Made by a program: the position numbers and the translations under genes | Assembly (NCBI GenBank): GCA_900290255.1 | Contig: OMOD01000125.1 | Span: 1 to 64,000, forward strand | Length of the DNA stretch: 64,000 nucleotides | DNA from: Candidatus Sulfotelmatobacter kueseliae | GTDB taxonomy: Bacteria; Acidobacteriota; Terriglobia; Terriglobales; Acidobacteriaceae | Direction of reading: 5' to 3' | The notes under the pieces: generated by a model | What the model was told of the DNA's origin: nothing | The model's input: the letters and a program-made list of their open reading frames with translations, nothing else | The model's database searches: none | Shown here: piece after piece, positions 30,895 to 48,950 of the stretch | Numbering within the stretch: the first letter of the stretch is position 1 | Layout: each line of letters starts with the position of its first letter

Positions 30895-30979
30895 GGGAAT
30901 GTCCTTTCGTCCAAGGGCGCCGCGATGTTTGCGCTCTTGCCTTAAAATGAGAGCTTTTGAAACGGCACGGGAGTGTCAA

Positions 30980-31001
30980 CTTAAGCGATTCCTTTACCGT
31001 T
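30980..31001. promoter_or_regulatory. 22-bp operator motif, copy B1 (TonB receptor promoter)
   Basis: Read on the minus strand the site is AACGGTAAAG, then GA, then ATCGCTTAAG. It begins 12 bases after a -10-like GATAAA, so bound protein would block transcription start. It matches four other sites in this window (33410, 42790, 48621, 48923). Confidence 0.6.
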
Positions 31002-31013
31002 TATTCCAGGAGG

Positions 31014-31041
31014 TTTATCACACGCCGGAAACCGTTGTCAA
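31014..31041 (-). promoter_or_regulatory. Promoter of the first TonB receptor gene
   Basis: On the minus strand a perfect TTGACA (31041-31036) is followed after 16 bases by GATAAA (31019-31014). The operator motif begins 12 bases further downstream. The same TTGACA, 16-base spacing, -10, operator order is seen at 42834-42861 and 48884-48911. Confidence 0.55.
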
Positions 31042-31147
31042 CCCAAAAAAGGGGGGCTGCCGACGGGAGCGAAGTTCGACAAAAGCTGAGTTGCCTTCGT
31101 CCGAACTTGGCGGCCAACCAGTGGGTTGTTGATGATGTTCCGACCTG

Positions 31148-32323
31148 TCAGTTTGAGGGCTGCTCCGGATGCAGCGCCTTTTGCAGTTGGCTCTGGACTT
31201 TCTCCAACTCTTGAAAGGCCGACAATTCTCGGTCCGCCTCTTGGTTCCGTCCCATGCCGCGATACAGGACGGCGAGCCGGTGGTGAACTTGGGCGTTATA
31301 CGGATCGGCACCCGCAGCAGATTGCAGGTACTCCAAGGCTTGCTGCGTCTTGCCTTCTTCTATCAGCAGTCCCGCTAAGCCGAGTTTCGCGCATGCCTGT
31401 TCCGGATTCAGCTTGAGCGCCCGCTCATAGTGGTCGAACGCCGTCGCCGAACTGGATCGCCAGAGCTCAATTTCCCCCAACTTACATTCGGAGCGTGCGT
31501 CGGTCGGATTCAAGAGCAGGGCGGCGGCAAACTCCTTTTGCGCCTCTGCCAGGCTGGCTTCCAGATGGGAGTCCGCAAGAATGGCTTCGCCGAACTCATA
31601 GTGCAGTCCGGGCACGCCTGGGCTGCTGGCGAGAGCCTTCCGGTATTCGCCGATTGCGTCCTGGGCATGCCCTGCATTCACCATGTGTTCGGCCAGGGCC
31701 CTATGAAGCTGCGCGGAGTCTGGAGCGGTGAGAGCGAGCGATTCGACAGCTTGGAAAGCCAGGTCGGTGTGCACGCGATAGGCGGCATACAACACGGTGG
31801 CATCGGTGGGGTAGAACTGTTGCAGTTGGCCGAGAACTGCGTTCGCCTTTTCCAACTCACCGCCCTGGTGCCAGATCTCCAACAGCTGCAGTCCTACCTC
31901 CCGGCGCAGTTTCGGATCCTCTAAATGCGGGAAGGAGCTGGAGAGCAGCTTGACCGCATCCTCGAGACGTCCCAAGTGCACTTCGCAAAGCCCCAGCAGC
32001 GCCTGGACTTTCCTATGGGAGGGACGCAGTTTGAGCGCTCTCTGCAGTTCCTCGGCCGCCTCGCCCCAGTTTCCCTGCACCATCGCCACGATCCCGAGGT
32101 TGGCGCGGGCTTCCACGTTGACCGGGTCGATCTTTAGAACGGCACGATACGCTTGCGCCGCCTCCTCCGGACGGTTGTCCTTTAGCGCCGTTTGCCCTTG
32201 CTCCAAGTATCCCTTGACCTCAGCCGCGTGGGAAACGTTTGATTGACCAACGCCATGCGGACTGAAAAGCAAGGCCATAGCGAGGTAGCTAATCACCACC
32301 GATATTCTGGCATGCCGTGTCAC
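31148..32323 (-). CDS. Exported TPR repeat protein
   Basis: I place the start at a GTG at 32323 because GGAGG stands five bases before it; an earlier ATG at 32374 would overlap the LacI gene. The 391-residue protein has an N-terminal hydrophobic stretch (ISVVISYLAMALLFS), a signal peptide or anchor, and then about eight to ten TPR units such as GQTALKDNRPEEAAQAYRAV, ANLGIVAMVQGNWGEAAEEL and HYERALKLNPEQACAKLGLA. TPRs are protein-binding scaffolds. The gene follows the LacI regulator by 19 bases and precedes the TonB receptor, a frequent arrangement in acidobacterial glycan loci; a role next to the receptor in the periplasm is plausible but not shown. Confidence 0.85.
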   Translation of the reverse strand: MTRHARISVVISYLAMALLFSPHGVGQSNVSHAAEVKGYLEQGQTALKDNRPEEAAQAYRAVLKIDPVNVEARANLGIVAMVQGNWGEAAEELQRALKLRPSHRKVQALLGLCEVHLGRLEDAVKLLSSSFPHLEDPKLRREVGLQLLEIWHQGGELEKANAVLGQLQQFYPTDATVLYAAYRVHTDLAFQAVESLALTAPDSAQLHRALAEHMVNAGHAQDAIGEYRKALASSPGVPGLHYEFGEAILADSHLEASLAEAQKEFAAALLLNPTDARSECKLGEIELWRSSSATAFDHYERALKLNPEQACAKLGLAGLLIEEGKTQQALEYLQSAAGADPYNAQVHHRLAVLYRGMGRNQEADRELSAFQELEKVQSQLQKALHPEQPSN

Positions 32324-32342
32324 ATAGTCCTCCGCGACGGGA

Positions 32343-33365
32343 TCAGGCGGGTCCTCCGCGTTTAGTAGAGGCACGAACCACGAGCTTCACCGGCATCAGC
32401 ATGTTTCGCTGCGGGGCATTCGGCTTTCGCTTGGTAAGGCCAATGGCGAGTTTCGCTGCATTTAATCCCAGTCCCTCGCTGTCCTGATCGATGCTGGTGA
32501 GCGGTATGCGTAGCAGATCGTCATAATCGAAGTTTCCGCAGCCGACAATCGCTACGTCCTGGGGAATCCGAAGGCCGGCATCGAATATCGCCCGCATCGC
32601 CCCCATGGCGATCGTATCGTTGTAACAGAAAACACCATCCGGCATCGGATGCAGTGATAACAGATGCTTCATTCCTTTGTAGCCGGAGGCTTCACCAGAG
32701 TCGTCAGTGCTTTCGTGGGCGACGACATACTGGGAGGGCAGGCTTAACCCATGCTTGGCTAGAGTCGCCAAGTACCCTGCTTGACGATCTACCGCCGTGC
32801 TGACCGCGGATCCGCCCAGGTAGGCGATGGTTTTGCAACCAACCTCGACCAGATGACCTGTAGCTAAAGATCCTGCCATGACATCGTCGTTCCCGACGGA
32901 GCTGGCCGAAAACCCCGGCATCTTCCGGTCCAGAAGGACATAGGGCACCTGACTCTGTTCGATTCTGCTTACGTTCTCCCCATTGGGTTGAGTCGAAGCC
33001 ACAATCAGGGCATCGACCCTGCGCGCAAGGATCTGCTCGATCTCGCGTTTTTCCAGGTGGGGATCGTCCTCAGAAGATGCGATGATCAGACTATATTCTT
33101 GCGACCGCAGCCGGGCCGAAATAGCCTTGGCGACTTTCGCAAAGAAGGGATGCAGCAAATCAGGCACCACGAGACCAATCAAGTTCGTGCGGCCCGTGAC
33201 CAGCGCTCGCGCGGCAGGATTAGGGTGATAGTTGAGCTCTTTTATCCGTTGCAGGACTCGCTTACGGGTCGCGGCGCTGATGTCGGAGTGGTTGCGTAGA
33301 ACCTTCGACACGGTTACGACGGAGACGCCCAGCGACTGGGCGATGTCTTTCATGGTTGCGATCAT
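32343..33365 (-). CDS. LacI family transcriptional regulator (paralogue of 47550-48608)
   Basis: This 340-residue regulator has a classical LacI helix-turn-helix (MKDIAQSLGVSVVTVSKVLR) and hinge (NPAARALVTGRTNLIGLVVP), then a GalR/PurR-type sugar-sensing domain ending GCGNFDYDDLLRIPLTSIDQ. The recognition helix SVVTVSKVLR is nearly the same as in the regulator at 47550 (SVVTISKVLR), so both should recognise very similar DNA. The 22-bp motif at 33410-33431 lies 45 bases before its start, between it and the divergent isomerase gene. The start is taken at the first Met; Met5 is an equal choice. The ligand could be L-fucose or a derivative judging from neighbours, which is inference. Confidence 0.92.
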   Translation of the reverse strand: MIATMKDIAQSLGVSVVTVSKVLRNHSDISAATRKRVLQRIKELNYHPNPAARALVTGRTNLIGLVVPDLLHPFFAKVAKAISARLRSQEYSLIIASSEDDPHLEKREIEQILARRVDALIVASTQPNGENVSRIEQSQVPYVLLDRKMPGFSASSVGNDDVMAGSLATGHLVEVGCKTIAYLGGSAVSTAVDRQAGYLATLAKHGLSLPSQYVVAHESTDDSGEASGYKGMKHLLSLHPMPDGVFCYNDTIAMGAMRAIFDAGLRIPQDVAIVGCGNFDYDDLLRIPLTSIDQDSEGLGLNAAKLAIGLTKRKPNAPQRNMLMPVKLVVRASTKRGGPA

Positions 33366-33409
33366 AGGCAGGGCTATTATCCCACTTCACCCCGGGCATG
33401 AACAGAAAT

Positions 33410-33431
33410 AGTCGCCGTTCACTTTATCGTA
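33410..33431. promoter_or_regulatory. 22-bp operator motif, copy B2 (LacI / isomerase divergent region)
   Basis: On the minus strand the site reads TACGATAAAG, then TG, then AACGGCGACT. Its left part (ACGATAAAGTGA) is shared with the site at 42790. A -10-like TATGAT (33432-33437) for the plus-strand isomerase directly adjoins it. It could therefore serve both the LacI gene and the isomerase gene. Confidence 0.5.
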
Positions 33432-33585
33432 TATGATCGTGCTGTCTGGACAGGGATCGATCACCCCTACGACCGCTTCTGTTGTAACCTCGAAGCGGCA
33501 TAGCTGTTCCCGACGATCTTGGCTTGCGAATATGAACGACTTGCAGTGAGCACGGAATTATTACGAAAAATGGAGGCACTTCTAT

Positions 33586-35229: not shown

Positions 35230-38200
35230 TTAGAACGTAAATCGTATTGAAAACTGCAACACGCGAGGAAGTCCGTTTGGGCTAATTTCCTGCAGCGCTC
35301 CGAAATTGCCCGGGCCCGAGTTGGGTACCAGATAGCAGAGCTGGTTCGGCGTTGCGCCATCACCGCAGTTGGTGCCGATGGGGTTGTATTGCAACTGGTT
35401 GATCCCGTCGCCATTCTGCACGTAGTAGTTGGCATGGTTGAATAAATTAAACGCTTGCACTTGAAACTGCAGTTCCTTGCCTTCTTGGATCGAAAAACTG
35501 CGGGCTAGTCCGACGTCGATCCTCTCCAGCCATGGGCCGTAGAAAGAATTCAGGCCGATTCCCGGCGTGGGGCCACCGCCATTGATGCCGGCCGCGGTGT
35601 TCGCGGTGTCCTGGTTAAAGGCGCTGTCGTTCAGGTTTCCATTGGCGCCGTCGCAATTGCTGAAAGACAGGGTCGAACTGGTGCACGCGGGACTCAGCAA
35701 ACCCGCGTAGGGACGCCCGGAAGAGAACTCCAGGACACTGCTCAGCCTCCAGCCCGAGAGGATCGCGCGCCCAGTTTCCGAACTCGTCAGTCTTTCCATC
35801 TCCGGCCGATAAACGCCCGCAAAAGCGATGCGATGCCGCTGGTCGAGCAGCGATGGGGCGTGGGTATTGCTGAAGTCGAACTGATTGTTGAAGTCCATCC
35901 CATCCAGCATGATGCTCTTGGCGAAGGTGTAAGACAATTGCAAAGCAAGGCCTCGCGACATGCGGCGCTGCAATTGCACGAAGAAAGAGTTGTAATAGTT
36001 TTGCCCGGGGCTGATCAGTTCGTTGATCTCGTCGAAGTTGGGGTTGATGCGGCCTTCGGTGAGCAGACCGTTGTCCATGTTCGGCAGGATCATCGTCCGT
36101 CCAGTGCAGGGCGCTGCGGTTGCGCTGGGAGGACACACCACATACGTCGTCGTGCCTTGCAAGGGATTTAGGTTCAAGTCATAGGCGCTGCCGGAAAGCA
36201 GATGAACGCCGTGATTCCACGTGGTACCGATACTTAGAGTTGTGTTCTCGAAAATCTCGCGCTCAATCTGCAAGCTCGCCTGCAAAATATACGGTGCCCT
36301 AAACTGCGGAGAAACCAGGGAAATGTCCGGGGAAGCCCCGAACAGGGGGGAGTTACCGGAGAGGATGTTGGGAAACGTTGGCAGCTGCTGGTTCGGCGGA
36401 CCTGAGGTGTAACTGGCACTTACCGAAGACTGCTGTGAAGCCAGACCGTTGGAAACCACTGCGTTGCGGTAGTTCAGGCCGTTCATGTTGGTGTAGAACT
36501 GTCCGAATCCTCCGCGCACTACGGTCTTGGCTGCAGGTTGCCAGGCAAATCCCACGCGCGGCGCAAGGCGGCGAAACTGGTTGGGATACTGCCCGGTGAG
36601 AGGGAAGGCCGGATTTTCCGCCGGCTGCGGATAAACCTGGAAATCTTCACGCAAGCCCATTTCCAGCGTCAAGTGCGGCAAAGCCCGAAACGTGTCCTGC
36701 GCGTAGAACCCGTAGTACGGCACAGCAAAAGAAAAAGTCGGATTTCCCGAAGACTGACTGAAGACGTTGTATTCGCCGAGAGCAAGAGCCTCCAGATTGG
36801 AAAATTCATAGCTGCCGAGGAATGACCCAAACTCGACGGCCTCGTTCGGGTCCGCCCCGCCATCATTGTTGTCCGAATCCCAAGCACGGTTCATATCGAA
36901 ACCGAATTGCAACGTGTGTTTGCCAATTACGTAGTCGACCCGGTCGGCCAGAGACCACTGTCTTTCGAAAACCCTCCCCACAGAGAAAGGAGCGTTGCCT
37001 AGAATGAAAGGGGCCGGACTGTCCAGAATTATTGTGGGCGTGTTTGGAGCCATGCCGGTGGGCGTGGAGATCTGGTTGTCGTCCGAACTGCCTGCGTGGA
37101 ATTCGTTCAGCAGATTGGAGGAGAAGGTGTGCGTCCATCCCAGGCTGGCCTGGAAGGTACGGACGTAGGCGTTAGCCAGCGTCTGCGTCCCATAGTTCCC
37201 TACGGTAGGGTCGGTGATGACGCCTCCGGGCGAGTTGAACCGGTTCACGTTGAAGCTGAGGAACAGGCCATCGCGAGAACTGGGCTGATAGTCCAGCCGA
37301 GGCGTGAACACCAGGTCGTTGCGCTTTCTTGCTTTGGTTCCGAGATTCGAGTTCAGCGCGCTCAGAGTGTTCGACACTTGCTGCAGGTACACAGGATTGG
37401 TGGGATCAGGCGTGCGGTCGCTGCCGGGCATCGGGTAGGGCCCGTTCGGCGGAGGTAGCGTCGTCCCGGTCGGAATCCCAAAATTGGCCAGCAAGAAAGA
37501 AGATAAGTTCGCCGGCGTTGTTGCCAATGCCGAGTTGATGACGGAAATCGGATTGTTCCGCAGTTGCTGTTCGTAATCGGCGAAGAACCATAAACGGTTT
37601 CGCAGGATCGGCCCACCCATCCCGGCGCCGAATTGCTGCAAGTCATCTTCGGGCCTGGGAAAGCCGGCAGCCTTGTCGAGGGCGTCGTTGGCTGCAGTCG
37701 CGGAGTTCCGGTTGTAATAGAACGCGCTGCCGTGGAACACGTTGCTGCCAGATTGGGTCACCGCATTTACGAAGCCCGCTCCACCTCCATAGATTGCCGA
37801 GTAGGGGCTAACCGCAACTTGAAACTCCTGGATCGCGTCCTCGCCGTACAGGTACGGGATGCGGTAACGGCCGATAATGTCGGCAAAGTAGTTGCTGGTG
37901 GCGTTGGATCCGTCCACCGTGAAGGCATTGGAGCCATTTCCATTGGCGTATCCGGAGTCTTCTCCGCCCTGTTGCCCGGCTATGCTCACAAGACCCGTGT
38001 CGCCGTCGTAGCTGGTATTCGGCGTGAGAGCAGCAAAGTCCGTGTATTTTCGTCCGTTGAGAGGCAACTCCTCAATCAACGACCGATCCAGCGCTGTGCT
38101 GGCGGAGGATTCCTCCGGCCGCAGCAGCGCCGTCGTGCCGCTTACTTTAACGATGTTCGCGCCGGTTCCCACCAGCAGCTTGATGTCCTGTGAAGTGGTG

Positions 38201-38547: not shown

Positions 38548-38841
38548 CTGGACTCCTCCAGCAACGCAATGGCAAGCAGAAAAATACGCAATTTTATACT
38601 AGCTTGAGCTGAACAAGTGGCGCAAACACTCTTTGCTGAGTGGCCTGCGCATAGATCGCCGAGATACAATTTGTCGTCGCCGCCTAGATGCCCGTCGTGG
38701 TTACTACATTATCCGCAGAAAAGGCGGAGTCTGGCCTGGAAGACACCGACTGCCCGGTATCTCCGGCCCGGCCCCGCCACCCAGATTGACACCGCGATAT
38801 CGTCGCCAAAGTGAGGCGAAGACATCGCAGGCATTAGCCTT
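38548..38841. other. Intergenic region upstream of the second TonB receptor
   Basis: These 294 bases must hold the receptor's promoter and the end of the phosphoesterase transcript. I see no convincing hairpin terminator, no copy of either operator family and no supportable gene. Confidence 0.4.
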
Positions 38842-41800
38842 TCATTTCAGCGCCACAATCAGATTGACGAATGTGTCCGAAGTACTTGCCGTCGCCGTCG
38901 CCGTCTGAATTGCCGCTGTGTTTGCTAGCTCATCCTCAGAGAAGCCGCAGTCATCGCTGGGAGAGTCCGTGGTTTCGGTATCTGCAAAGCCCGACCCCGC
39001 GGTAAAGGTTGCCTCCGAGTTCGCGCCGCTGAAGTAAGCGAAGATGTAATCGTTGGCATTGGTGGTTGCCGCGGAAGTGGATACGGAGAGAGCCGTGCCG
39101 GTCTGCACTACAGTTCCCGTGGTGTCCACTACTGCGGTCGCGCCACTGACTTCGTAAATGTGGCAGTGCATGTTGCCCGCAGTGCCTATGTTGCAGTTTA
39201 CGGTATCGGCCCCGGAGCTGGCGGCCACGGCAACGTATATAGCGGCCGCCGCGTTTCCCGTACTGTTCGCCGTTACCAGCTGAGTGAAGGTGTTACCTTG
39301 CGAGTCCGTCGGAGCCGCAAGTGGGTGAGTGTAATATGCGCTCTCGGCCACCAGTACCAGGTTTCCGGAGGTCACGTTGTTGGCAAACGCAATCGGAACC
39401 GAGGTGCCATATCCGAATCCGCTGTTGTGTTGAACCGCCTGCGCGGCTGTGCTCGGCTTCGGCTTCAGAGCCACAATCAGCTCGACAAACGTATCCGAAG
39501 TACTTGCCGTCGCCGTCGCCGTCTGAATTGCCATCGTGGTTACGAGTTCGTCCTCAGAGAAGGCGCAGTCATTGCTGGGGTCATCCGTGGTTTCAGTATC
39601 TGCAAAGCCCGACCCCGCCGTAAAGCTTGCCTTCGAGTTGTCGCCGCTGAAGTAAGCGAAGATGTAATCGTTGGCACTGGTGGTTGCGGTGGCAGTGGAC
39701 ACGGACAGTGCCGTGCCGGTCTGCACAGAAGTTCCCTGGGCGTCTACTAGGGCCGTCGCGCCACTGAGTTCGTAAATGTGGCAGTGAATGTTGTTCGCAC
39801 TGTTTATGTTGCAGGTCACGGTATCGGCCCCGGTGCTGTTGGCCGTGCCAACGTATATGCCGGCGACCGAGTTTCCCGCACTGTTCGCCGTCACCAGCTG
39901 AGTGAAGGTATTGCCTTGCGAGTCCGTTGGAGCTTGCAGCGTCTGTCCGGCGTATGTGCTCTCGGCCACCAATACCAGGTCTCCGGAGGTCACGTTGCTG
40001 GTAAACGCAACTGCAACTGAGGCGGCATTTCCGTTGAATCCGCTGTTGTGTTGAACCGTCTGCACGCTACCGGCCGGCAACGGCACAACCAGGCTGACCG
40101 TGGCCGCGTGACTCACGCTGCCACTGCTGCCAGTGATGACAAGCGTAAAGGTCCCCGCCCGAGTCGAAGTGGTGGTCGAAACGGTCAAGGTCGAGGATCC
40201 CGAGCCGCCACTGATCGAGGTGGGACTGAAGCTGGCCGTGGCGCCCGTGGGCAAGCCACTCACCCCCAGAGACACCGCTGCCGTGAATCCGTTAAGCGGT
40301 GAAACGCTGGCCGTGTAGGCGGTGTTCCCGCCAGGAGACACCGTCTGCGAACCCGGCGTTGCCGATAACGTAAAGTCCGCCGTTTTCGCTGATTGCACAA
40401 CCAGCGTGACAGTGGCTGTGTGGATTAAGCTGCCGCTGGTGCCTGTGATGGTCAGCGTAGAGGTTGCCAACGGAGTCGAAGCGGTGGTCGAAACGATCAA
40501 GATCGAGGATCCCGAACCGCCGCTGATCGAGGCGGGGTTGAAGCTGGCCGTAGCGCCCGTGGGCAAGCCACTCACGACCAGAGACACGGTTCCCGTGAAT
40601 CCGTTAAACGGGGCAACGTTGGCTGTGTATGTGGTGTTCGCGCCGGCGTTTACCGTATGCGAACTCGGCGTCGCCGAGAATATAAAATCCGGCGGCGTAG
40701 GAGTTGTAAAAGGACGCGGATTGAAATCTGGGGGGATCGGATTAACGATACCTTTTGCCCGATCTGTTGTGGTGATTCCCAGGTCTGCACAGCCGTATCC
40801 CGTGGTTTGGGGCAAGGTCTTGATCAGCGATTCCGAAATTTCCACGTATTGCGGTGGCAATGGTAAGGCTTTGCCGGTCAGGCGCGAAGGGCTGAAAGCA
40901 TCAAGGAGATCAGTCACATGAGGGGTAATTGCGTCCTGCGGACCCAACTGCGTCTGCCCGAACTCAAGTTTCCCTTCCTGGCGCGCAGCCTTCTCATCGG
41001 GTAAGGTCGCCAGCGGCGGCAGATCGAACACCGTCTCAACGAATTTCAATACCGAAGCGTGGTTTCCGTGAGCCTTGGCCACGTATTGGGTGCGGGCGTA
41101 GGGTGAAATGAGAACCAGCGGAACGCGGGGCCCGTCACTGATCCACGAGCCGTCCGGACCCGTGACGAGAAGCGGAGGAATAACATGGTCATAATCGCCC
41201 TCGGAATCGTCATAGGTGATAATGATCGCACTCCGGGCCCAGTACGGGCTCTTGGCGATCTTGTTGATGCCTTCGGCCACCGTGGCTTCGCTGATCTGAG
41301 CGTCCGAATAGCCGGGATGCTCATCATCGCCCCCGAAATTCGATTGCACTGCCGAAGCCGGATCGGCCGGTGTCAAGTTAAGGTTATTGGGCCCAGTCCC
41401 CCCCTTGATGAAAAAGACGCCGCCTTGACTCGGGAGGGTTTTCTTATCGAGCGCATCCCAGAAGTCCTGCAAACCATGGAAATAATCGTTTCGCAGGGTG
41501 AGGTTGTTTGAGAGGTAACCGAAATACTGCGGGGCGTCGTGGTGAGTAGAGTAGGAACTGTGCGTTCCCTCGGGACCCGAGGTACTCGAATCGGTGGGTT
41601 CCTTGTCGAAGCCCTCCTGATACCAGCCAAACGCCACTCTGTCTTTGCCATGTGCAGCAAGAAACTCGATGTCGTTCTGCACGTCGTCCAAGTCGCCCAC
41701 CGGGTCACGGTCCGCCTTGAGCGCCTTCTTGGCATCTTTTCCTAATAAGCTGAGCGGGAGCGTGGCATAACTGAGATTAATACTGGGAGAGTTGTCGGGT

Positions 41801-42615
41801 AGATCGCCTGGGTTGTAGGGCATCTGTTCGGCCAGTGGTGTAGGGTCCAAAGAGGATCCCCAGAAGGGATTGGGGTCACCCAGCACCGGCACATTGCCTG
41901 CCTCGTCCGGATGCAGAGCCCACTGGGTTACGCCGGTCTGGGCCCCAATAATAGAAAGATTTCCAGGCGTTGAGGGGCCGATCATCAGTTGGAATATGTG
42001 GTCGAATAGCACAAACCTGTCAGCGTACCTCCAAAGAAATGGGAGCGTGTCGCAGTCCATGTACGCCATTGTCAATTCCCCAGCCTGCTTTGCCGCCAGA
42101 TTGGGGAAAGCGCCTGAAGTGTTGTTGTTTTCCTCGGTGAGTGCATACATGTCCATTAAGGGCTTGGGCGGAGTACCTTGGATGTCCATCTTATTGATGA
42201 GCGCCCCATGGTCGTGACCGACATCGTCGGTGTCTGCCGCGAACTCCTTTGGCCCCATACGAAACGGCCGGATGGTGGTTGTGGTGCCGTCGGTGTTTAT
42301 GAGTTGCTGCACGAAACCGGGAGTTTGTGCAGGAGGGTTGGTGAAGAGCCCTTCAGCGTTGGGAAAAGTGCCGAGGACGGAGTCGAAGGAACGATTCTCC
42401 TGGTAGAACACAAAGACGTACTGAACCTTTTTTCGAAGTTCGTTGACCAGGTCTGTGGTGGTTAGCGTAGGTTCATTCTCCGGACGAATCAAGTACTTGC
42501 TCACGGCTTGTTGATGTGCCGTGGGCTTTTCTTGTGCAAACAGCGTGGTGGCTGCCAGCGACGCCAGACAGATGGCCAGTCCCGCAAGCAAACCCTTGCA
42601 TCGATCAACCTGCAT
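38842..42615 (-). CDS. Secreted phosphoesterase (AcpA/phospholipase C type) with Ig-like and tandem C-terminal repeats
   Basis: The 1257-residue exported protein (signal LLAGLAICLASLAATTLFAQ) carries a phosphoesterase domain of the acid phosphatase/phospholipase C superfamily at about residues 65-600. It has FYQENRSFDS (residues 71-79, the family's ENxSFD motif), DVGHDHGALINK, IITYDDSEGDYDHVIPPLLV and GPRVPLVLISPYARTQ, all contributing metal and nucleophile sites. Two Ig-like repeats follow (each with VSGLPTGATASF and SISGGSGSS), then two copies of an about 206-residue module (APTDSQGNTFTQLVTANS, ANDYIFAYFSG, SGFADTETTD). It would cleave phosphate esters or phospholipids at the cell surface. 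A ribosome site (AAGGAGGGTTT) and a promoter with the 22-bp operator lie upstream, placing it in the glycan regulon. Confidence 0.9.
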   Translation of the reverse strand: MQVDRCKGLLAGLAICLASLAATTLFAQEKPTAHQQAVSKYLIRPENEPTLTTTDLVNELRKKVQYVFVFYQENRSFDSVLGTFPNAEGLFTNPPAQTPGFVQQLINTDGTTTTIRPFRMGPKEFAADTDDVGHDHGALINKMDIQGTPPKPLMDMYALTEENNNTSGAFPNLAAKQAGELTMAYMDCDTLPFLWRYADRFVLFDHIFQLMIGPSTPGNLSIIGAQTGVTQWALHPDEAGNVPVLGDPNPFWGSSLDPTPLAEQMPYNPGDLPDNSPSINLSYATLPLSLLGKDAKKALKADRDPVGDLDDVQNDIEFLAAHGKDRVAFGWYQEGFDKEPTDSSTSGPEGTHSSYSTHHDAPQYFGYLSNNLTLRNDYFHGLQDFWDALDKKTLPSQGGVFFIKGGTGPNNLNLTPADPASAVQSNFGGDDEHPGYSDAQISEATVAEGINKIAKSPYWARSAIIITYDDSEGDYDHVIPPLLVTGPDGSWISDGPRVPLVLISPYARTQYVAKAHGNHASVLKFVETVFDLPPLATLPDEKAARQEGKLEFGQTQLGPQDAITPHVTDLLDAFSPSRLTGKALPLPPQYVEISESLIKTLPQTTGYGCADLGITTTDRAKGIVNPIPPDFNPRPFTTPTPPDFIFSATPSSHTVNAGANTTYTANVAPFNGFTGTVSLVVSGLPTGATASFNPASISGGSGSSILIVSTTASTPLATSTLTITGTSGSLIHTATVTLVVQSAKTADFTLSATPGSQTVSPGGNTAYTASVSPLNGFTAAVSLGVSGLPTGATASFSPTSISGGSGSSTLTVSTTTSTRAGTFTLVITGSSGSVSHAATVSLVVPLPAGSVQTVQHNSGFNGNAASVAVAFTSNVTSGDLVLVAESTYAGQTLQAPTDSQGNTFTQLVTANSAGNSVAGIYVGTANSTGADTVTCNINSANNIHCHIYELSGATALVDAQGTSVQTGTALSVSTATATTSANDYIFAYFSGDNSKASFTAGSGFADTETTDDPSNDCAFSEDELVTTMAIQTATATASTSDTFVELIVALKPKPSTAAQAVQHNSGFGYGTSVPIAFANNVTSGNLVLVAESAYYTHPLAAPTDSQGNTFTQLVTANSTGNAAAAIYVAVAASSGADTVNCNIGTAGNMHCHIYEVSGATAVVDTTGTVVQTGTALSVSTSAATTNANDYIFAYFSGANSEATFTAGSGFADTETTDSPSDDCGFSEDELANTAAIQTATATASTSDTFVNLIVALK
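38845..40072 (-). repeat. Direct repeat of a 618-bp module inside the phosphoesterase gene
   Basis: Two copies (about 38845-39450 and 39463-40072) lie in tandem. The stretch AGTACTTGCCGTCGCCGTCG recurs at 38880 and 39498, an offset of 618 bp, in a longer identical run. The encoded modules are closely similar, including APTDSQGNTFTQLVTANS and TATATASTSDTFV. An equally clear pair of Ig-like units precedes them at about 40085-40690. The nucleotide similarity suggests recent duplication or gene conversion. Confidence 0.8.
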
Positions 42616-42789
42616 AAACCCTCCTTGATTGGGGTGGTCCTATCTTCCTTACCTAAATCGACTGACCGTTCGCGCGCGGGTTCATCGTGCCAATACTCTG
42701 TTTTGCGATCGTTGGTCTCTTGTCCTTCAAGTCAAATGGCCCGCGTCTCGAAAGCCCCCAGTGTGCGATGCCCGCCAAAAAAGAAGTTA

Positions 42790-42811
42790 CGTAATCGCTC
42801 ACTTTATCGTT
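42790..42811. promoter_or_regulatory. 22-bp operator motif, copy B3 (phosphoesterase)
   Basis: On the minus strand it reads AACGATAAAG, then TG, then AGCGATTACG. It is identical at 18 of 22 positions to the site at 48923 and lies 22 bases downstream of the -10 of its promoter, a road-block position. Confidence 0.65.
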
Positions 42812-42833
42812 GCTTTTCCAGGGGTGCCGTACT

Positions 42834-42861
42834 TTATTACACCTGAAAGAGGACTTGTCAA
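42834..42861 (-). promoter_or_regulatory. Promoter of the phosphoesterase gene
   Basis: On the minus strand TTGACA (42861-42856) is followed after 16 bases by TAATAA (42839-42834). The -35 is perfect; the -10 is weak. The operator at 42790 follows downstream. Confidence 0.45.
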
Positions 42862-43081
42862 GCACATTCCGCGCCGACAACAGAGACAGCGATGGCAGGT
42901 CCCCCATTAAGTCGCGATGCGGCCGGACAGGGGAAGTTACCGCATCCGGCTCTCGGAAAAGAGGCGCGGTTTCCCGTGTTGCGTCCGGCCCCCTATGTCT
43001 GCATGCCGGGTGGAGCGATCCAGTTCCCGGGCGGGCCTTTCATCCCGTAATGGGCCGGTGCCTTTTCACGGCGCACTGAAA

Positions 43082-43100
43082 CGCGGAGAATTATTCCGCG
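43082..43100 (-). terminator. Hairpin after the GHMP kinase gene
   Basis: On the minus strand CGCGGA (43100-43095) pairs with TCCGCG (43087-43082) around a seven-base A/T-rich loop and is followed by TTTC. It lies 20 bases after the kinase stop and would end the GDP-sugar transcript. The U-tract is short. Confidence 0.4.
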
Positions 43101-43120
43101 CGGACACGATGGGATCTATA

Positions 43121-43948
43121 TCACCGTTTCAGAGTTGAGGTTAGCCGTCGATCCTTCTGCGCGAGACGGATCTTCACCTGGATCGAGCCGGGCACCTTGT
43201 CTTCGGAAGCAACATAGAGATAGCCGCCACCGGACCCTGAGTACATTGCCCCGGCATAACGGGACTGGTAAGAAGCCAGCAAGCTGAGCAGGTCCAGCTT
43301 GATGGCCGGATGTCGGACGGTATGGGGCAGGAGCGCTTCCCAGCACCTCATGCATTCATTCATCGACTCCCCCAGTTCCCGTAAATTCTTGGTGACAATC
43401 GCATGGAAGCACACTTTTCCGGATTCGCCCAGCCGACGGACCCATTCGGCGCTCAAATGCTGCTCCCCGAGGGGGTTGTAGCCGTCCGGACGAGGAGCAA
43501 CGGGTAGGACGTGCAAAACGTCCTCCAGCCAGATCATCACCTCCTCATCGTGGCAGGATTCGACATGGACCGGAAAGAGTCCTCCACGATGGTCATAGTC
43601 GTAGTCGAGCCGGTTGACGCCGGGCAAGATGAGTCCAGCCATGTCCTGCGAACCCGATGGTTGCGCCACTCCCTGGTTCTCGGCCTCGTACAGCTCCCGA
43701 ATCAGCTGCATCGGGTCTCCATCCGGCAACGTGCCGTTCCATAGCCTGGCAGCGGCAGCTCGCGTACTGGTGGCCATCCCCGCCCGATCCATAAAAGGGA
43801 AGGAAGGCTCCAGCCCGACCACGACCATCGAACCGGGCGGCTGGGGATTGAGCTTGGACATGAATGGCTGATCAATCCAGCCGCCAGCCAGTGCCATTCG
43901 ATAAGGAATCTCATCCGCCAGCCAGTGCCATTCGATAAGGAATCTCAT
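43121..43948 (-). CDS. GHMP-family sugar kinase, putative L-fucokinase, with a disrupted 5' end
   Basis: GHMP kinases phosphorylate sugars at the anomeric carbon; here L-fucose to fucose 1-phosphate is inferred from the guanylyltransferase encoded two genes upstream. Visible motifs are ALAGGWIDQPF (family motif 1, substrate loop), AGMATSTRAAA (motif 2, the ATP-binding helix) and YSGSGGGYLYVAS (motif 3). The reading frame now opens at 43948 with MRFLIEWHWLADEIPYRMAL, whose first 11 residues come from an out-of-frame copy of a 34-bp tandem duplication. Without the duplication the frame would read MNEVNNTQAMNEIPYRMALA from 43979, close to the mutarotase stop. An internal ATG at 43897 (MALAGGW) would retain motif 1. 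Activity is therefore uncertain; a sequencing or assembly error is possible. Confidence 0.75.
   Translation of the reverse strand: MRFLIEWHWLADEIPYRMALAGGWIDQPFMSKLNPQPPGSMVVVGLEPSFPFMDRAGMATSTRAAAARLWNGTLPDGDPMQLIRELYEAENQGVAQPSGSQDMAGLILPGVNRLDYDYDHRGGLFPVHVESCHDEEVMIWLEDVLHVLPVAPRPDGYNPLGEQHLSAEWVRRLGESGKVCFHAIVTKNLRELGESMNECMRCWEALLPHTVRHPAIKLDLLSLLASYQSRYAGAMYSGSGGGYLYVASEDKVPGSIQVKIRLAQKDRRLTSTLKR
43881..43948 (-). repeat. Perfect 34-bp tandem duplication at the start of the kinase gene
   Basis: The unit 43881-43914 is repeated base for base at 43915-43948. On the minus strand each copy begins ATGAGATTCCTTATCGAATG and ends with GCTGGCGG. As 34 is not a multiple of three, it shifts the frame, and a ribosome starting at 43979 would meet TGA at the copy junction. 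Confidence 0.95.
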
Positions 43949-43999
43949 TCATGGCTTGCGTATTATTGACTTCATTCATGGCATGAGTCTTTCCGGGTA

Positions 44000-44389
44000 T
44001 TAGGCCGACTCCACAATCATGTTGGCGTACTGTATCGTGTCGCCCGTGCGGATCAGTCCGATCGCCTGCGGCACACGTTCCTTGAACCGCACGTGCGGCT
44101 CGAAGATGGTCTCAACATTCCCAATGCACCGTTCAAAGCTGCGCAGCGTTTTTGAGCTGTTTACTTGCCGAAATTCTTCCGCCATTACGATCTTTCCAAT
44201 CGTGAAATTCGTTTGCACGGCTTTAAGAACATCCAGCACCCGAGGAATGTCGTCCACCAAAGAGATGTCGATGGTCTCGATTTGGGGCCAGTACGGGAAT
44301 CCTCGGTCCGCGATCACCAGCGTGTTTGTGTGCCGAATCCGGCTCAGTAGTGAATTGATGGCGGGATTAAGGATTCCGTGTTTCAGCAT
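44000..44389 (-). CDS. RbsD/FucU family sugar mutarotase
   Basis: The 129-residue protein matches the RbsD/FucU family, which interconverts anomers or ring forms of D-ribose or L-fucose. It has the N-terminal signature MLKHGILNPAINSLLSRIRH, with the His following LLSRI that is catalytic in the family, then TLVIADRGFPYWP, and a C-terminal block IGLIRTGDTIQYANMIVESA, where family members close their active site with Tyr and Asn. The ribosome site AGGAGGGTGATTC is excellent. It lies between the guanylyltransferase and the kinase; supplying the fucose anomer that a fucokinase uses is the natural role. The family members are hard to separate by eye, so L-fucose is inferred from the neighbours. Confidence 0.9.
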   Translation of the reverse strand: MLKHGILNPAINSLLSRIRHTNTLVIADRGFPYWPQIETIDISLVDDIPRVLDVLKAVQTNFTIGKIVMAEEFRQVNSSKTLRSFERCIGNVETIFEPHVRFKERVPQAIGLIRTGDTIQYANMIVESA

Positions 44390-44423
44390 GAATCACCCTC
44401 CTGTTGCTGCCCACTTGTGCCCG

Positions 44424-46118
44424 TCAGATCGTTCCACATTCTTGACGCTGCCTGGTCTCGGCTTGAACTGTCGAACTTGCAGTCGACCACAGCATCGAAC
44501 GCCGCTTGTGGAACGCAGATTGACTGAGCAACAACGCTATTTGCGACGAACTATAGCGGTCCGCCGCCAGAAAGCTGCGCTTCTGCTCCGGCGTCGCGCG
44601 CTCAACGTCGAACATCCACAACCAACGGCGATAGGCCAGGTGCTCGGCCTCCGCGGGGCATACTCGCGCGTTCCACAGTGTGTGGTCTCGTTCCGGCAAC
44701 TCCGGCGTCCAGAGGTCGGATGCGCTTACACCGACGACCCGCATCCACTCCAACAGCGGTTTGCCGCAGAAGGTGCCGCCCGCTGCTGCCGTCTGCTTGT
44801 AGTTGTCGTCAACGCCACAGCATCGTACCAGCCAGATGGATTTTCCCTTTCGATCAGAGCCCGCCGACACATCCAGGCACGCCCCTGGCGACAGAGTAAG
44901 AGGCTCCAGCACGTCCAGCCCTACTGCCACATTGTCCCCTGCCAGGACGAGCGCGGCGCTTATACAGCAGCCTTCCACCCAAGCGTGATCTCCTGACACG
45001 CTCCCCTGGCCAATAACTTGGCTGCTGAGAACCAGCACAGACGTATCCGGAGGAGCAGATTGGTGGCCAGCCCGCAGAGCGATCCCGCTCGTGATAAGCT
45101 GCCGGGTTGTACCGAAATGAAGGAAGTCACAATCGCTGAGGACCTGCAGATGGACGTGAACACCACTCAAGGCCTCGAATAGCTCTTTTAGGATCGCGGC
45201 GTCAAGTTTCGACCCGCTTGCCCGCACACCCTCGCTGTAGCTGGTGAACGTGGCCTCCGCCCCCAGCGCGCAGCAAATCTCACGGTATAGGTCGAGGCCG
45301 TGGGTCATGAGAACATCCTGCATCCCGGCACGCCAACGAAGAGTCGGTCCGCCAGCGGCCGGCGTCAACTCAAAAAAGGCCCGCATCAACCTGATCGCGG
45401 TACCGGCATCCATGCTCATAACGCCAAGGTCCAGGATCGATTGGCCAGCCTGGTTCACAGCCCCGTTGTTGATCTGTGCATCCACCGAGGGTTTCTGCAG
45501 ATAGAGGCGAAGCAAACCTCCGCTGCCCGCACAGAACACACCATGGCGAGCCGCTTCTTCCGGCGAGGTGAACGATCCTAAAAGCGTCATGCCGGGAGCC
45601 GCGAGATCCAGATCTGAAACTTCGAACTGGAGGAGTGCGTCCCCGGAGGCAACTACAATTTGTCCTCCTCCCTGGGGGCCTTTCGGTAAAGCGAGAAGCG
45701 CTGGTATCAGCAAGTCGAAAAGCGTGACGGGAATTGGCGAGGTGCTTGAGGCAGGGACTGGAACAAAAATCTTCCCGCCGTGGGAGTATGCGGGCAAGCG
45801 CCGCGAATCGCCGCCGGCGTGAACCATGAGAATGCGCAGGCGGCGCAGTACCGAGCTCGCTTCTTCAAAATCGCCGATTCCACCCTGGGGCGCTTCACGC
45901 TGCAAAACTTCCGCCAAACAATGCAGCGTGCTTCCCGCGCTGCCAATCCGCTTGTCATCAATGTCCGCCACCACAAGGAAATGGCGGACTTGGGAAAGCT
46001 CGCCCGCTTCATGGCGCAGCCGGATCTGGTCTTCGTACGCCGCGGCTTGCCGCGCATTGGCGGCGGTGAGAATCAGATAATCCCATGACTGTGTCATCTT
46101 GGCGGACGAGCCTGACAT
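44424..46118 (-). CDS. Fucose-1-phosphate guanylyltransferase-like protein (FKP N-terminal half)
   Basis: The 564-residue protein resembles the nucleotidyltransferase half of bifunctional FKP and mammalian FPGT, which turn fucose 1-phosphate and GTP into GDP-L-fucose. Diagnostic parts are RIGSAGSTLHCLAEVLQ (residues about 57-73), ILMVHAGGDSRRLPAYSHGG with the following KIFVPVP (about 96-122), the nucleotide-binding loop of the family, and a C-terminal part with VIGQGSVSGDHAWVEGCCIS resembling a left-handed beta-helix. It lacks a kinase domain, which is supplied by the separate GHMP gene downstream. The start could equally be Met8 (46097); neither has a strong ribosome site. It follows the epimerase gene by nine bases. 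Together with the mutarotase and kinase this forms a GDP-fucose salvage block. Confidence 0.8.
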   Translation of the reverse strand: MSGSSAKMTQSWDYLILTAANARQAAAYEDQIRLRHEAGELSQVRHFLVVADIDDKRIGSAGSTLHCLAEVLQREAPQGGIGDFEEASSVLRRLRILMVHAGGDSRRLPAYSHGGKIFVPVPASSTSPIPVTLFDLLIPALLALPKGPQGGGQIVVASGDALLQFEVSDLDLAAPGMTLLGSFTSPEEAARHGVFCAGSGGLLRLYLQKPSVDAQINNGAVNQAGQSILDLGVMSMDAGTAIRLMRAFFELTPAAGGPTLRWRAGMQDVLMTHGLDLYREICCALGAEATFTSYSEGVRASGSKLDAAILKELFEALSGVHVHLQVLSDCDFLHFGTTRQLITSGIALRAGHQSAPPDTSVLVLSSQVIGQGSVSGDHAWVEGCCISAALVLAGDNVAVGLDVLEPLTLSPGACLDVSAGSDRKGKSIWLVRCCGVDDNYKQTAAAGGTFCGKPLLEWMRVVGVSASDLWTPELPERDHTLWNARVCPAEAEHLAYRRWLWMFDVERATPEQKRSFLAADRYSSSQIALLLSQSAFHKRRSMLWSTASSTVQAETRQRQECGTI

Positions 46119-46127
46119 CGACGTGCG

Positions 46128-47153
46128 CTACGTTTGTGACGCGGTGACGAATTCTCGGACAATGCCGGCCTGGCCGCTCTCGCGGGCCCGGTACTGGTCG
46201 TAGATCCAGGCGTACGTTTTCTCCAGCCCCTCTCGTAGAGGGATGCTTGGCTCCCAGTTAAGATATTTTTGAATCAGCGTGTTGTCGCTGTTGCGGCCGT
46301 TCACTCCCCGGGGAGCCTCCAAATCGTATTTGCGATTCAGCTGGATGCCGGCAATGTCCTCGACCAGGTCAACCAGCCGGTTGATGCTGACGGCTTCGGC
46401 CGAGCCGAGATTTATCGGCTCTGGAATGTTGGAATTCATGATCTTCTGCACGCCTTCGAGACAGTCATCGATGTACATGAAGCTCCGCGTTTGATTTCCG
46501 CTGCCCCAGATTTCGATCTCACGCTTGCCGCTTTCCTTGGCTTCGATGACTTTTCTGCAGATTGCCGCCGGCGCCTTCTCGCGCCCACCAAACCAAGTGC
46601 CCCACGGACCGTAAACGTTATGAAAGCGCGCCACACGTGTATACAAGCCGAAATCCTCGTGAAAATGCCGGCACATGCGCTCCGAGAAGAGTTTCTCCCA
46701 ACCGTAACCATCTTCGGCCAATGCGGGATACGCATCCTCTTCCCGCAGCAGGGGAGCCTCAAAAGACTTCTGCTTGTCGCCGTTGTAAACGCACGCCGAA
46801 GAAGAATAGAAATACCTGGCCACGCGGTATTTCACCGCCGCCTGCAACATGTGCGTATTGATGAGAACGGAAAGCATGCACAGGGCCTTGTTCTTCTCGA
46901 TGAACCCCATGCCGCCCATGTTCGCCGCCAAGTTGTAGACATCGCAGGCGTCCCGTACCGCCTTTTCGCAGTTCTCCTTGATATTCAGGTCCAAGGAGAG
47001 ATTTTCGACGTCATCGAAATGCTGATACCAATGGTCCAACGGTTTAACGTCGACTGCGCGAATGCGCTTGTAGTCCTGTTGGCGAAGCGAGGCAACCAGT
47101 GCTCCCGCTATGAAACCGCCCGCCCCGGTAACAACTACCAACTCCTCATGCAT
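46128..47153 (-). CDS. GDP-mannose 3,5-epimerase-like NAD-dependent epimerase
   Basis: The 341-residue protein is an extended SDR sugar epimerase. The Rossmann motif VTGAGGFIAGALV binds NAD; the active site has SSSACVYN and YGWEKLFSE (Tyr and Lys of the YxxxK motif), and the segment NLAANMGGMGFIEKNKALCM closely follows the GDP-mannose 3,5-epimerase pattern. Plant enzymes of that type make GDP-L-galactose and GDP-L-gulose from GDP-D-mannose. The later HNVYGPWGTWFGGREKAPAA is also shared. The start has GGAG seven bases upstream. It is the first gene of a four-gene run ending with the kinase, so it may supply a second GDP-L-sugar for glycan building. Other NDP-sugar epimerases cannot be excluded. 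Confidence 0.8.
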   Translation of the reverse strand: MHEELVVVTGAGGFIAGALVASLRQQDYKRIRAVDVKPLDHWYQHFDDVENLSLDLNIKENCEKAVRDACDVYNLAANMGGMGFIEKNKALCMLSVLINTHMLQAAVKYRVARYFYSSSACVYNGDKQKSFEAPLLREEDAYPALAEDGYGWEKLFSERMCRHFHEDFGLYTRVARFHNVYGPWGTWFGGREKAPAAICRKVIEAKESGKREIEIWGSGNQTRSFMYIDDCLEGVQKIMNSNIPEPINLGSAEAVSINRLVDLVEDIAGIQLNRKYDLEAPRGVNGRNSDNTLIQKYLNWEPSIPLREGLEKTYAWIYDQYRARESGQAGIVREFVTASQT

Positions 47154-47549
47154 GTCATTTCTCCAATAATCGATGCGACGCGGCTTCTTGGCATCGAGCT
47201 TGAGCGCTACAATTATCCTCCACAGACCTGAGCGCCCCTCTCAGGCTTCTGGGGTTCGGGTCCATGCCGTAGTCTTAGCCGCGCTTGCTCAATCTTATTC
47301 GATACAGTAAACGATTGCTACATGAAATTTTCGGCTCAGCCCCTATTTTTTCTTTTTTTCGCTGCCTGGGTCCAGTGGCTCGGGGCAGAGCCGGGACTGC
47401 CGCAAGGCGAGTCCCGAAACCATTCACCGCCGTACTGTCATCCACTTTTTTCAGGACACCTTGTCTTTTGTGCCTGCCAGCAGCAGGTCGAACAAGTCAT
47501 CGGCTGGCAAGGCACAAGCCGGGTATCAGCGCACAGGGGCGCTGATTCT
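47154..47549. other. Intergenic region upstream of the GDP-sugar operon
   Basis: In 396 bases I see a weak match to the 22-bp operator (47305-47326) about 150 bases before the epimerase start. The A/T-rich stretch 47339-47360 follows. A plus-strand reading frame beginning at 47322 starts like a signal peptide but runs antisense into the LacI gene and is not supported. Confidence 0.35.
47305..47326. promoter_or_regulatory. Weak sixth match to the 22-bp operator motif
   Basis: The minus-strand sequence AGCAATCGTTTACTG matches the right arm of the motif (ANCG-MTTAM) but the left arm is poor. If real it would tie the GDP-sugar operon to the same LacI regulators. Confidence 0.25.
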
Positions 47550-48608
47550 CTATTCCGACGTAGTGCGGGTTGTTTCCGGAGGAAGGCGCGCCTTGTCGGT
47601 TCTAGCAGTGGAAGCGCGGACCACAAGCGATGGATCCAGTATGATGCGCCTCCTGCGGGGAGGTGTTTTCGCCGCAATGATGCTCAGAGCAAGGCGGGCG
47701 GATCTTTCCCCTATCTGCTGACTTTGCTGGTCAATGCTAGAGAGTGGGACACGCAGCGAGTCATCGTAGTGAAGATTGCCGCAGCCAATGATTGCAATGT
47801 CCCTGGGTACATTTAATCCTGCTTCTAGAGTTGTGTCGATAGCTCCCATTGCCATCGGGTCGTTATAACAAAATACGCCGTCGGGCGGAGGTTGTACGCT
47901 CAACAGGCGCCTCATGCCTTCCGCTCCTTGCTGGCGGCTCTGGACATCGGCCGTCCGCTCAGCGACAACGTATTCGGCATGAAACTGCATGCCGTGCTGC
48001 GCCAGAGATTTCTTGTACCCTTCAAAGCGTCGAATGCCAGGGCTAATTTCCGGGCCGCGAATGTGAGCGATGCGCTCACACCCCACTGCAATCAGATGGT
48101 CGGTTGCGAGGATGCCGGCAGCCTCGTCGTCGATGCCAACAAAGCTAGCCGGGAAACCCACAAACTCCCTGTCGATTAAAATATAGGGCGTGACTTGGTT
48201 CTCAACGCGGTGGGGCGGCTCACCTGTCTTACGCGAAGACGCGATGATCAGGGCATCGAGCTGCCGCCCCAATAAATGATCGATTTGTTGCTCTTCCAGT
48301 TCCGGGTCCTCTTCCGAAGACGAGATGATGAGCGAGTATCCCTTCTTTCTCAACGCAGTTGAGAGCGCCTTCGCGACCTCGGCGAAGAAGGGGTGCAAAA
48401 GGTCAGGCACGACCAAGCCTATCAGGTAACTACGCCCGGTCACCAAGCTGCGTGCTGCCAGATTAGGACGGTAGTTCAGCTCCTTAACGCGCGCTAGCAC
48501 TCGTTCCCGGGTTTCGTCCCCGATATCGTCGTGATGGCGCAAAACTTTGGAGATAGTCACCACGGACAGACCCAGATCCTTGGCGATGTCCTTCAATCGA
48601 ACGGTCAT
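47550..48608 (-). CDS. LacI family transcriptional regulator (paralogue of 32343-33365)
   Basis: This 352-residue regulator has a helix-turn-helix LKDIAKDLGLSVVTISKVLR, hinge NLAARSLVTGRSYLIGLVVP and a PurR/GalR-type sugar-binding domain. Identity with the regulator at 32343 is high throughout, including DLLHPFFAEVAKALS and YDDSLRVPLSSIDQ against YDDLLRIPLTSIDQ. The near-identical recognition helix means both could bind the 22-bp motif, a copy of which lies 13-34 bases upstream of this gene (48621-48642), suggesting autoregulation. It adjoins the GDP-sugar operon and the scar region upstream of the Tat-exported gene. The ligand is unknown and may differ from that of its paralogue. Confidence 0.92.
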   Translation of the reverse strand: MTVRLKDIAKDLGLSVVTISKVLRHHDDIGDETRERVLARVKELNYRPNLAARSLVTGRSYLIGLVVPDLLHPFFAEVAKALSTALRKKGYSLIISSSEEDPELEEQQIDHLLGRQLDALIIASSRKTGEPPHRVENQVTPYILIDREFVGFPASFVGIDDEAAGILATDHLIAVGCERIAHIRGPEISPGIRRFEGYKKSLAQHGMQFHAEYVVAERTADVQSRQQGAEGMRRLLSVQPPPDGVFCYNDPMAMGAIDTTLEAGLNVPRDIAIIGCGNLHYDDSLRVPLSSIDQQSQQIGERSARLALSIIAAKTPPRRRRIILDPSLVVRASTARTDKARLPPETTRTTSE

Positions 48609-48620
48609 ACACTGAGTTTA

Positions 48621-48642
48621 GTCATTAAAGTTAACGCCTGCA
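48621..48642. promoter_or_regulatory. 22-bp operator motif, copy B4 (LacI autoregulation)
   Basis: On the plus strand it reads GTCATTAAAG, then TT, then AACGCCTGCA, keeping the core TAAAG-N2-A-N-CG of the family but degenerate at the outer ends. It lies just upstream of the minus-strand LacI start. Confidence 0.4.
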
Positions 48643-48729
48643 ATGGCCGGTAATGGTGTGCGCATCAACGCGGTCCAGCCGGGGCATATTGCCGAGATGT
48701 CCGCGCTTTCGGATCGCCTGGTGCAGGGC
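48643..48729 (+). pseudogene. Possible short-chain dehydrogenase fragment
   Basis: A plus-strand frame reads MAGNGVRINAVQPGHIAEMS and continues ALSDRLV. It resembles the N-A-V-x-P-G block found after the active site of short-chain dehydrogenases. Nothing homologous follows. It is very short, so chance resemblance is quite possible. Confidence 0.2.
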
Positions 48730-48775
48730 AGACTGTGCCTCTGCTGCCGATTTACAGGTGATCACCCGGTAAGTC

Positions 48776-48850
48776 GCCTCAGGGAGTCTTACCCCGAGGC
48801 GCCCGCAGAACTGTGCGTGAGCCTCTCGACTCATACAGTTCCCATCAGGG
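48776..48850 (-). mobile_element. Remnant of a group II intron 3' end (domains V and VI)
   Basis: On the minus strand 48841-48808 folds as a 34-base domain V-like hairpin: GAACTGTATGAGTC, a GAGA tetraloop, then GGCTCACGCACAGTTC with a two-base bulge. The length, tetraloop and bulge match group II intron domain V. The catalytic AGC triad reads AAC here. It is followed by GCCTCGGGGTAAGACTCCCTGAGGC (split as GCCTCGGGG, TAAGA, CTCCCTGAGGC; 48800-48776), a domain VI-like hairpin, and then GACTTACC. No intron-encoded reverse transcriptase lies upstream, so only the 3' end remains. Confidence 0.6.
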
Positions 48851-48883
48851 AGCCTTCGTTTCGGTTCGGTATCCTTATTGTGA

Positions 48884-48911
48884 TTGACAGTGCTCTTCTG
48901 AGTGTGATAGT
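48884..48911 (+). promoter_or_regulatory. Promoter upstream of the broken TonB stub
   Basis: TTGACA (48884-48889) is followed after 16 bases by GATAGT (48906-48911). The 22-bp operator starts 12 bases later. The arrangement is the same as at the intact TonB receptor gene (31014-31041 with 30980-31001). Confidence 0.55.
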
Positions 48912-48922
48912 TATCCACCCTT

Positions 48923-48944
48923 AACGCTAACGCAAGCGATTACG
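48923..48944. promoter_or_regulatory. 22-bp operator motif, copy B5 (upstream of the TonB stub and the six-hairpin gene)
   Basis: On the plus strand it reads AACGCTAACG, then CA, then AGCGATTACG. It differs from the phosphoesterase site at only four positions. Confidence 0.65.
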
Positions 48945-48950
48945 TAGCGA

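Follow-up and report, generated by a model that had tools for sequence, protein, structure and literature searches.

Predicted LacI-type operators of a local regulon at a probable fucoside-utilization locus

Contig OMOD01000125.1 of Candidatus Sulfotelmatobacter kueseliae carries, within its positions 1–64,000 (a stretch of 64,000 nt, here called the window, from a genome of 5,391,637 bases), the genes of two LacI-type regulators, LacI-1 and LacI-2, set amongst genes for TonB-type receptors, glycosidases and fucose metabolism. Which DNA element do these regulators read, and which genes does it serve? A preliminary description had proposed that five promoters share a 22-mer, AACGNTAAMGNNANCGMTTAMG, and form one regulon under two cross-talking repressors. 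From the sequence comparisons it is most likely that the sites serve as operators for LacI-type repressors and that these, two old LacI paralogues, control a fucoside-utilization locus. A single local regulon tied to both proteins is well supported. The sites are recovered by a motif that was learned from DNA other than the window; of the genome's 11 LacI-family proteins these two alone carry the recognition helix; and the orthologues of either are found in fucose loci that have comparable operators. The computations themselves show where the sites lie, that they are conserved and almost confined to the contig, which families the regulators belong to, and the linkage to fucose genes.

A palindrome from orthologue promoters

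Motifs were fitted to the DNA upstream of LacI orthologues in other genomes, with the window excluded from fitting. The first fit used 34 regions, leaving out L084–L090, L092 and L093, which have a different upstream element, and the near-copy L111; the second used 29 regions, additionally leaving out L091, L079 and L081–L083 (near-copies removed). From the 34 regions came an 18-mer, AtCG.TAAcgTTA.CGaT, with a log-likelihood of 100.6 against 32–39 in three shuffled controls, and a CG-centred 20-mer, T.aaGTtAtCGaTaACtt.A, with 111.9 against 34–42 in controls. The 29 regions gave a CG-centred 18-mer, a.aGTTAaCGtTAACt.t, with 61.6 against 31–39 in six dinucleotide-shuffled controls. Scanning with the matrices covered the window plus 400 kb of the genome, and consensus patterns covered the rest. 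A separate related-locus search returned three distant loci (27–35% identity), which were left out of the analysis.

The first six ranks of the window with the 34-region 18-mer are 47298 (18.3), 12226 (17.5), 42794 (16.9), 30984 (16.2), 38137 (14.9) and 48923 (13.9), the top background score among 399,660 positions being 14.4. The fifth, 38137, sits inside a gene, and 12226 is taken up with the regulators below; the other four are the strong predicted operators of Table 1. The best of them, at 47298–47315 upstream of an epimerase and fucose-pyrophosphorylase pair, had been overlooked in the preliminary description. With the 34-region CG-centred 20-mer, 42787 and 47303 rank first and second in the window, and 30977 and 48928 are equalled by 10 and 11 background positions. 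The even, CG-centred palindrome of a LacI-family operator is found here too: the 29-region matrix, made from relatives, puts 30978, 42788 and 47304 first to third, overlapping three of the four strong sites. The motif has two phases six bases apart, and a CG-centred or an MG-centred reading both fit the window sites, which individually are imperfect palindromes with AG, CG or GG as the central pair in one phase. Across the genus, exact palindromes turned up at 12 places, spread over 11 of 45 genomes; a one-strand reversed control had 20, so there is no overall excess. Four of the 12 lie upstream of LacI-2 orthologues and one lies 163 bases before a TonB-like match.

The element had been described as lacking the strict palindrome of common LacI sites. 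A lack of palindromy did not hold up, since palindromic motifs emerge from the LacI-orthologue promoters and their matrix recovers the window sites. It may be asked whether the motif is instead a direct repeat of 12 bp that serves a different kind of regulator, for example a response regulator, as the 22-mer can be divided into two similar units at that distance. We set this reading aside as hardly credible because of the palindromes from LacI-orthologue promoters, among them a perfect 18-bp palindrome before two LacI-2 orthologues (L080 and L082).

The conserved feature is this palindrome rather than the 22-mer. Exact matches to the 22-mer occur at 30980–31001 (−), 42790–42811 (−) and 48923–48944 (+), all in the window and nowhere else in the genome, and the last two do agree at 18 of 22 positions as had been stated. 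The other two of the five reported sites depart from it: 33410 has five mismatches, and near 48621 even the closest fit has six. Both are weak in both matrices and are not the equals of the rest. At three mismatches or fewer the 22-mer has 16 places over the whole genome, against 35 for its reversed control. As a conserved motif it was rejected: 10 of 150 family genomes, the own genome included, match at one mismatch, and eight of the nine outside places fall in stop-free stretches of at least 150 codons. Separately, the phosphoesterase gene contains identical 22-mers at 39033 and 39651, a distance of 618 bases, which suggests an internal repeat.

The consensus patterns place the sites within the genome. 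The pattern WNCGNTAMMKKTANCGNW, which was written with the window sites already known and is not an independent test, has 16 places at one mismatch or fewer against 58 for its reversed control. Four are in this contig, all intergenic (12226, 30984, 42794 and 47298). Of the remaining 12, the eleven that were examined each overlap a reading frame, though C28:28099 does so only at the frame's end. Within two mismatches, ANCGNTAAMKTTANCGNT has 22 places, five of them in this contig. Nine of those elsewhere were examined: eight fall in frames, and the ninth, C85:1831 (score 15.6), is intergenic, with no clear target seen. A genome-wide regulon was rejected, relaxed matches off this contig being almost all in reading frames. 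The sites stand before functionally linked operons near the regulators and are nearly confined to the contig, as in a local regulon.

Two LacI paralogues and the neighbouring fucose genes

The genes named in the preliminary description, TonB-type receptors, the LacI genes 32343 and 47550 and the phosphoesterase 38842, are all present. The N-terminal helix-turn-helix (PF00356) scores 66.2 bits in LacI-1 and 49.0 bits in LacI-2 against a cut-off of 27, and the periplasmic-binding-protein-like sugar-sensing domain (PF13377 and PF00532) is over cut-off in both. The two proteins are 54% identical, and their recognition helices are, as reported, nearly the same, SVVTVSKVL and SVVTISKVL differing at one residue. 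Among the 11 LacI-family proteins of the genome only these two have the SVVT(V/I)SKV helix, which recurs in 32 of 44 orthologue rows inspected; the four closest orthologues of LacI-2 (L080–L083) have SVITISKV or SLITISKV. LacI-1 and LacI-2 fall in separate orthologue clades of a maximum-likelihood tree, with starred support, which points to old paralogues, not a recent duplicate. A match to the subfamily at E 1e-105 or better was found in 61 of 399 genomes drawn, the own genome included. A related genus-wide LacI group adjoining TonB-like genes (L084–L093) has another element, CGTTAACC, followed by a TATGCT-like box, upstream of its LacI-2-like genes in eight of ten loci.

Given nearly the same recognition helix, both proteins could bind the same sites. 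The single regulon of the earlier proposal is well supported; its supposed cross-talk is plausible and would fit the sequences. The paralogues might instead have largely separate sites, for example LacI-1 those of the 47298 type (ACAGTAAACG) and LacI-2 those of the AACGNTAAMG type, with little cross-talk. They are old and each is conserved separately, and ACAGTAAACG-type sites do occur in LacI-1-clade loci (L144, L145) and ATCGRTAACTTTACCGAT at LacI-2 orthologues. However, only one residue separates the helices, and genome G152, in which LacI-1 alone was matched in the stretches covered, has a AACGCTAA-type site before its TonB gene. We regard such a division as possible, if rather unlikely.

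A third LacI protein, with the helix SLGTVDRAI, is encoded in the window at 9872–10954. A perfect palindrome, TGCGGTAACGTTACCGCA, stands at 12226–12243 before a beta-helix gene, with a looser copy, TGCGTTTACCTTACCGCA, at 9847–9864 just upstream of the third LacI gene; the high matrix rank of 12226 was noted as that of a likely site of this protein, and the protein with its two sites probably makes up a separate regulon. That it also acts on the four strong sites would fit the CGGTAA half-site that its own likely sites share with them and the score of 12226 in the same matrix, but its helix differs and its sites have TGCGG ends, and we judge this improbable.

The genes behind the strong sites (Table 1) include those of an alpha-L-fucosidase and of fucose-pathway enzymes. 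We take the sets at 20847–30894, 35230–42615 and 49081–55438 to be presumably co-transcribed; besides the fucose pyrophosphorylase, the window has a GH29 fucosidase (24462–25988) and a GH141-domain protein (53156). Beside LacI-1 orthologues there are an epimerase (L079, L144) and, in L079, L143 and L144, a fucose pyrophosphorylase with a 43121-type protein as well as GH29 fucosidases. The one LacI-2 locus scanned, L082, has two GH29 fucosidases, an aldo/keto reductase, two alcohol dehydrogenases and an MFS transporter. Sites go with these genes: among 25 related loci they precede the homologous epimerase in L144 (23.4) and L079 (12.3), and TonB-like genes have one before them in L079, L081, L155, L156 and L160. 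In L147 a site (20.3) precedes FKP, though within an opposite-strand frame. As for autoregulation, the sites before the window's own LacI genes (48621 and 33414) are weak and no more than suggestive; several orthologues have sites close upstream.

Several points weigh against operators of a fucose regulon. The fits to real data had more random starts than the shuffled controls, and the background sample of 399,660 positions included coding DNA, not intergenic DNA only. The 29-region matrix gives the 48923 region only 11.4–11.6, with 7–8 background positions as high, and the 75 bases upstream of 47298 contain no TTGACA. At the thresholds used, two of the 25 related loci (L095, L151) have no site, several related-locus matches fall inside predicted reading frames, and the G152 TonB gene closest to 27382 (80%) is without such a site in the upstream stretch read. 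The divergent isomerase gene of the preliminary description is present, its protein (33586) having fucose-isomerase domains, but the domain scores are under Pfam's cut-off.

Table 1. Features of the locus. Operator scores are from the 34-region 18-mer, with the number of the 399,660 background positions scoring as high in brackets; CG-centred scores are from the 29-region matrix.
Feature	Position	Strand	Context or content	Evidence
Strong predicted operator	30976..31001	−	Upstream of TonB-type receptor 27382–30894; CG centres 30986, 30998	Exact 22-mer; 16.2 (0); CG-centred 14.9
Strong predicted operator	42786..42811	−	Upstream of phosphoesterase 38842–42615; CG centres 42796, 42808	Exact 22-mer; 16.9 (0); CG-centred 13.6
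Strong predicted operator	47298..47322	−	Upstream of epimerase 46128–47153 and fucose pyrophosphorylase 44424–46118; CG centres 47300, 47312	18.3 (0); CG-centred 13.3; site also before homologous epimerase genes of G381 and G152
Strong predicted operator	48923..48946	+	Before TonB remnant and 49081–55438 genes; CG centres 48925, 48937	Exact 22-mer; 13.9 (1); promoter and operator aligned in G152
Weak candidate operator	33414..33431	−	Between LacI-1 and fucose-isomerase-like gene; CG steps 12 bp apart	8.5 (32); second matrix 9.1 (40)
Weak candidate operator	48621..48638	+	Just upstream of LacI-2; no CG pair at 12 bp	8.2 (40); second matrix 10.9 (11)
Sigma-70-like promoter, TTGACA-16-GATAGT	48884..48911	+	Before 48923 operator	10/12 consensus matches; aligned in G152
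TonB-receptor remnant	48952..49035	+	Matches residues 19–49 of 27382 protein	tblastn 80.6% identity, E 8e-8
LacI-1	32343..33365	−	Clade with G152, G013, G381, G330, G433	PF00356 and Peripla_BP over cut-off
LacI-2	47550..48608	−	Clade with G150, G165, G167, G176, G070, G284	PF00356 and Peripla_BP over cut-off
Probable operon	20847..30894	−	Behind 30976 operator: TonB receptor, beta-helix protein, GH29 alpha-L-fucosidase, EamA transporter, GH2-type glycosidase	Pfam; same strand, short gaps
Phosphoesterase, then TonB-type receptor	35230..42615	−	Behind 42786 operator	Pfam
Epimerase, fucose pyrophosphorylase, unnamed protein	43121..47153	−	Behind 47298 operator	PF01370, PF07959
Unnamed protein, beta-helix protein, GH141-domain protein	49081..55438	+	Behind 48923 operator	PF13229, PF21231

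Promoters and paired CG steps

Promoters had been reported at three sites, and a TTGACA, 16 bases and a −10 hexamer (GATAAA, TAATAA and GATAGT) can indeed be read before 30980, 42790 and 48923, with the sites just downstream; a mechanical promoter scan, on the other hand, accepted only 48884–48911 of the three, and there was no regional excess (5 found, 7.0 expected). In L081–L083 a TTGACA and a −10-like hexamer, both pointing away from LacI, flank the operator. Positions downstream of a promoter or between its hexamers would both suit repression. We infer binding, repression, an inducer and the sharing of sites by both LacI proteins in the following form. Each strong site is an imperfect LacI-type palindrome, readable as CG-centred (roughly AAMGNAANCGNTTNCKTT), and takes in part of a second such centre, a CG step at a distance of 12 bp. 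A dimer bound just downstream of the sigma-70-like promoter, as at three of the four strong sites, would block transcription, and an inducer derived from fucose or fucosides would free the operators, so that TonB receptors, glycosidases and fucose-pathway genes would be switched on jointly.

The 48923 operator may have a history of its own. The stretch 48884–48946 can be aligned to a TonB gene's promoter and operator in G152; that gene is intact there and is followed by a beta-helix gene and a homologue of 49081. The window, by contrast, has a match there to no more of a TonB protein than residues 19–49, at 48952–49035, and the 49081 gene comes next. On the simplest reading, the 48923 operator appears to be a relic of the promoter of a lost TonB receptor, and the downstream genes kept it. 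Some of the strong similarity between sites could be due to common ancestry of duplicated TonB promoters, not to selection on operators, and 30984 and 48923 do lie within alignable TonB promoters. Yet 42794 and 47298 precede unrelated genes, and sites like these are also seen in other families of the class; we hold common ancestry to be a very improbable explanation. The 49081–51420 protein itself (779 residues) has no Pfam or NCBIfam family; its homologue in G152 is 93% identical over the first 458 residues and 95% over residues 293–779, its neighbours there being only about 52–84% identical, and this high identity may reflect either recent exchange or strong constraint.

All four strong sites have two CG steps exactly 12 bp apart, the window baseline being 554 of 5,645 CG steps with another CG at +12. 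A CG at +12 or −12 is found in 22 of 38 non-redundant CG-centred sites from 37 related loci, a count in which some overlapping sites enter twice and the CG step alone was examined for a second centre. By sides, a CG stands at offset 12 on 25 of 76, whereas offsets 13–30 average 6.5 of 76. The matrix spans nine bases per side, so the 12-bp spacing is not built in. Against a double centre, 10 of 30 background matches (lower threshold, mostly coding) also carry a CG at 12 bp. We put forward as speculative, and somewhat doubtful, the proposal that the working operator of this LacI subfamily is a double-centred element, with two CG centres at a fixed distance of 12 bp and one inner arm common to both; two dimers, or the two paralogues, would compete for it or alternate on it.

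Comparison with known systems

Polysaccharide utilization loci of the Bacteroidetes type cluster TonB receptors with glycosidases and local regulators. The window likewise has all three together; its receptors (27382 and 35230), by comparison, have an OMP_b-brl_4 barrel with CarboxypepD_reg, and no SusD-like protein was found among the proteins scanned with Pfam. The term 'operator motif' did not occur in what was found of the literature joining LacI with Acidobacteri- or Terriglob-, most subscription papers being outside the search's coverage. The finding is real, and the locus is ordinary in kind, a probable local LacI-family regulon; the proposed double centre and captured promoter are its less ordinary parts. 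For a LacI subfamily common in this class it offers an operator and a regulon that can be tested, and it ties that subfamily to fucose-rich glycans.

In the main text of Ravcheev et al. (2014; PMC4052901), from which the terms 'acidobacter' and 'fucose' are absent, most LacI-family operators are even palindromes with CG at the centre; 110 operons are preceded by overlapping sites at a distance of about 13 bp, which are hard to square with structural data. As in the local sugar regulons of that text, the window has LacI regulators beside sugar genes, even palindromes of 18–20 bp, several local operons and possible autoregulation; unlike in those regulons, its operators are imperfect and phase-dependent (central AG, CG or GG). 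A 12-bp double centre would bear on overlapping LacI operators generally and, if true, would be a natural test case for those that are unexplained. A close parallel in the same text is the pair of GntR sites at gntKU, which overlap within a single promoter, as the two proposed here would, by roughly a helical turn; there the distance is ∼13 bp and the genes are those of gluconate use, whereas here 12 bp separate the CG steps and both centres are predicted only.

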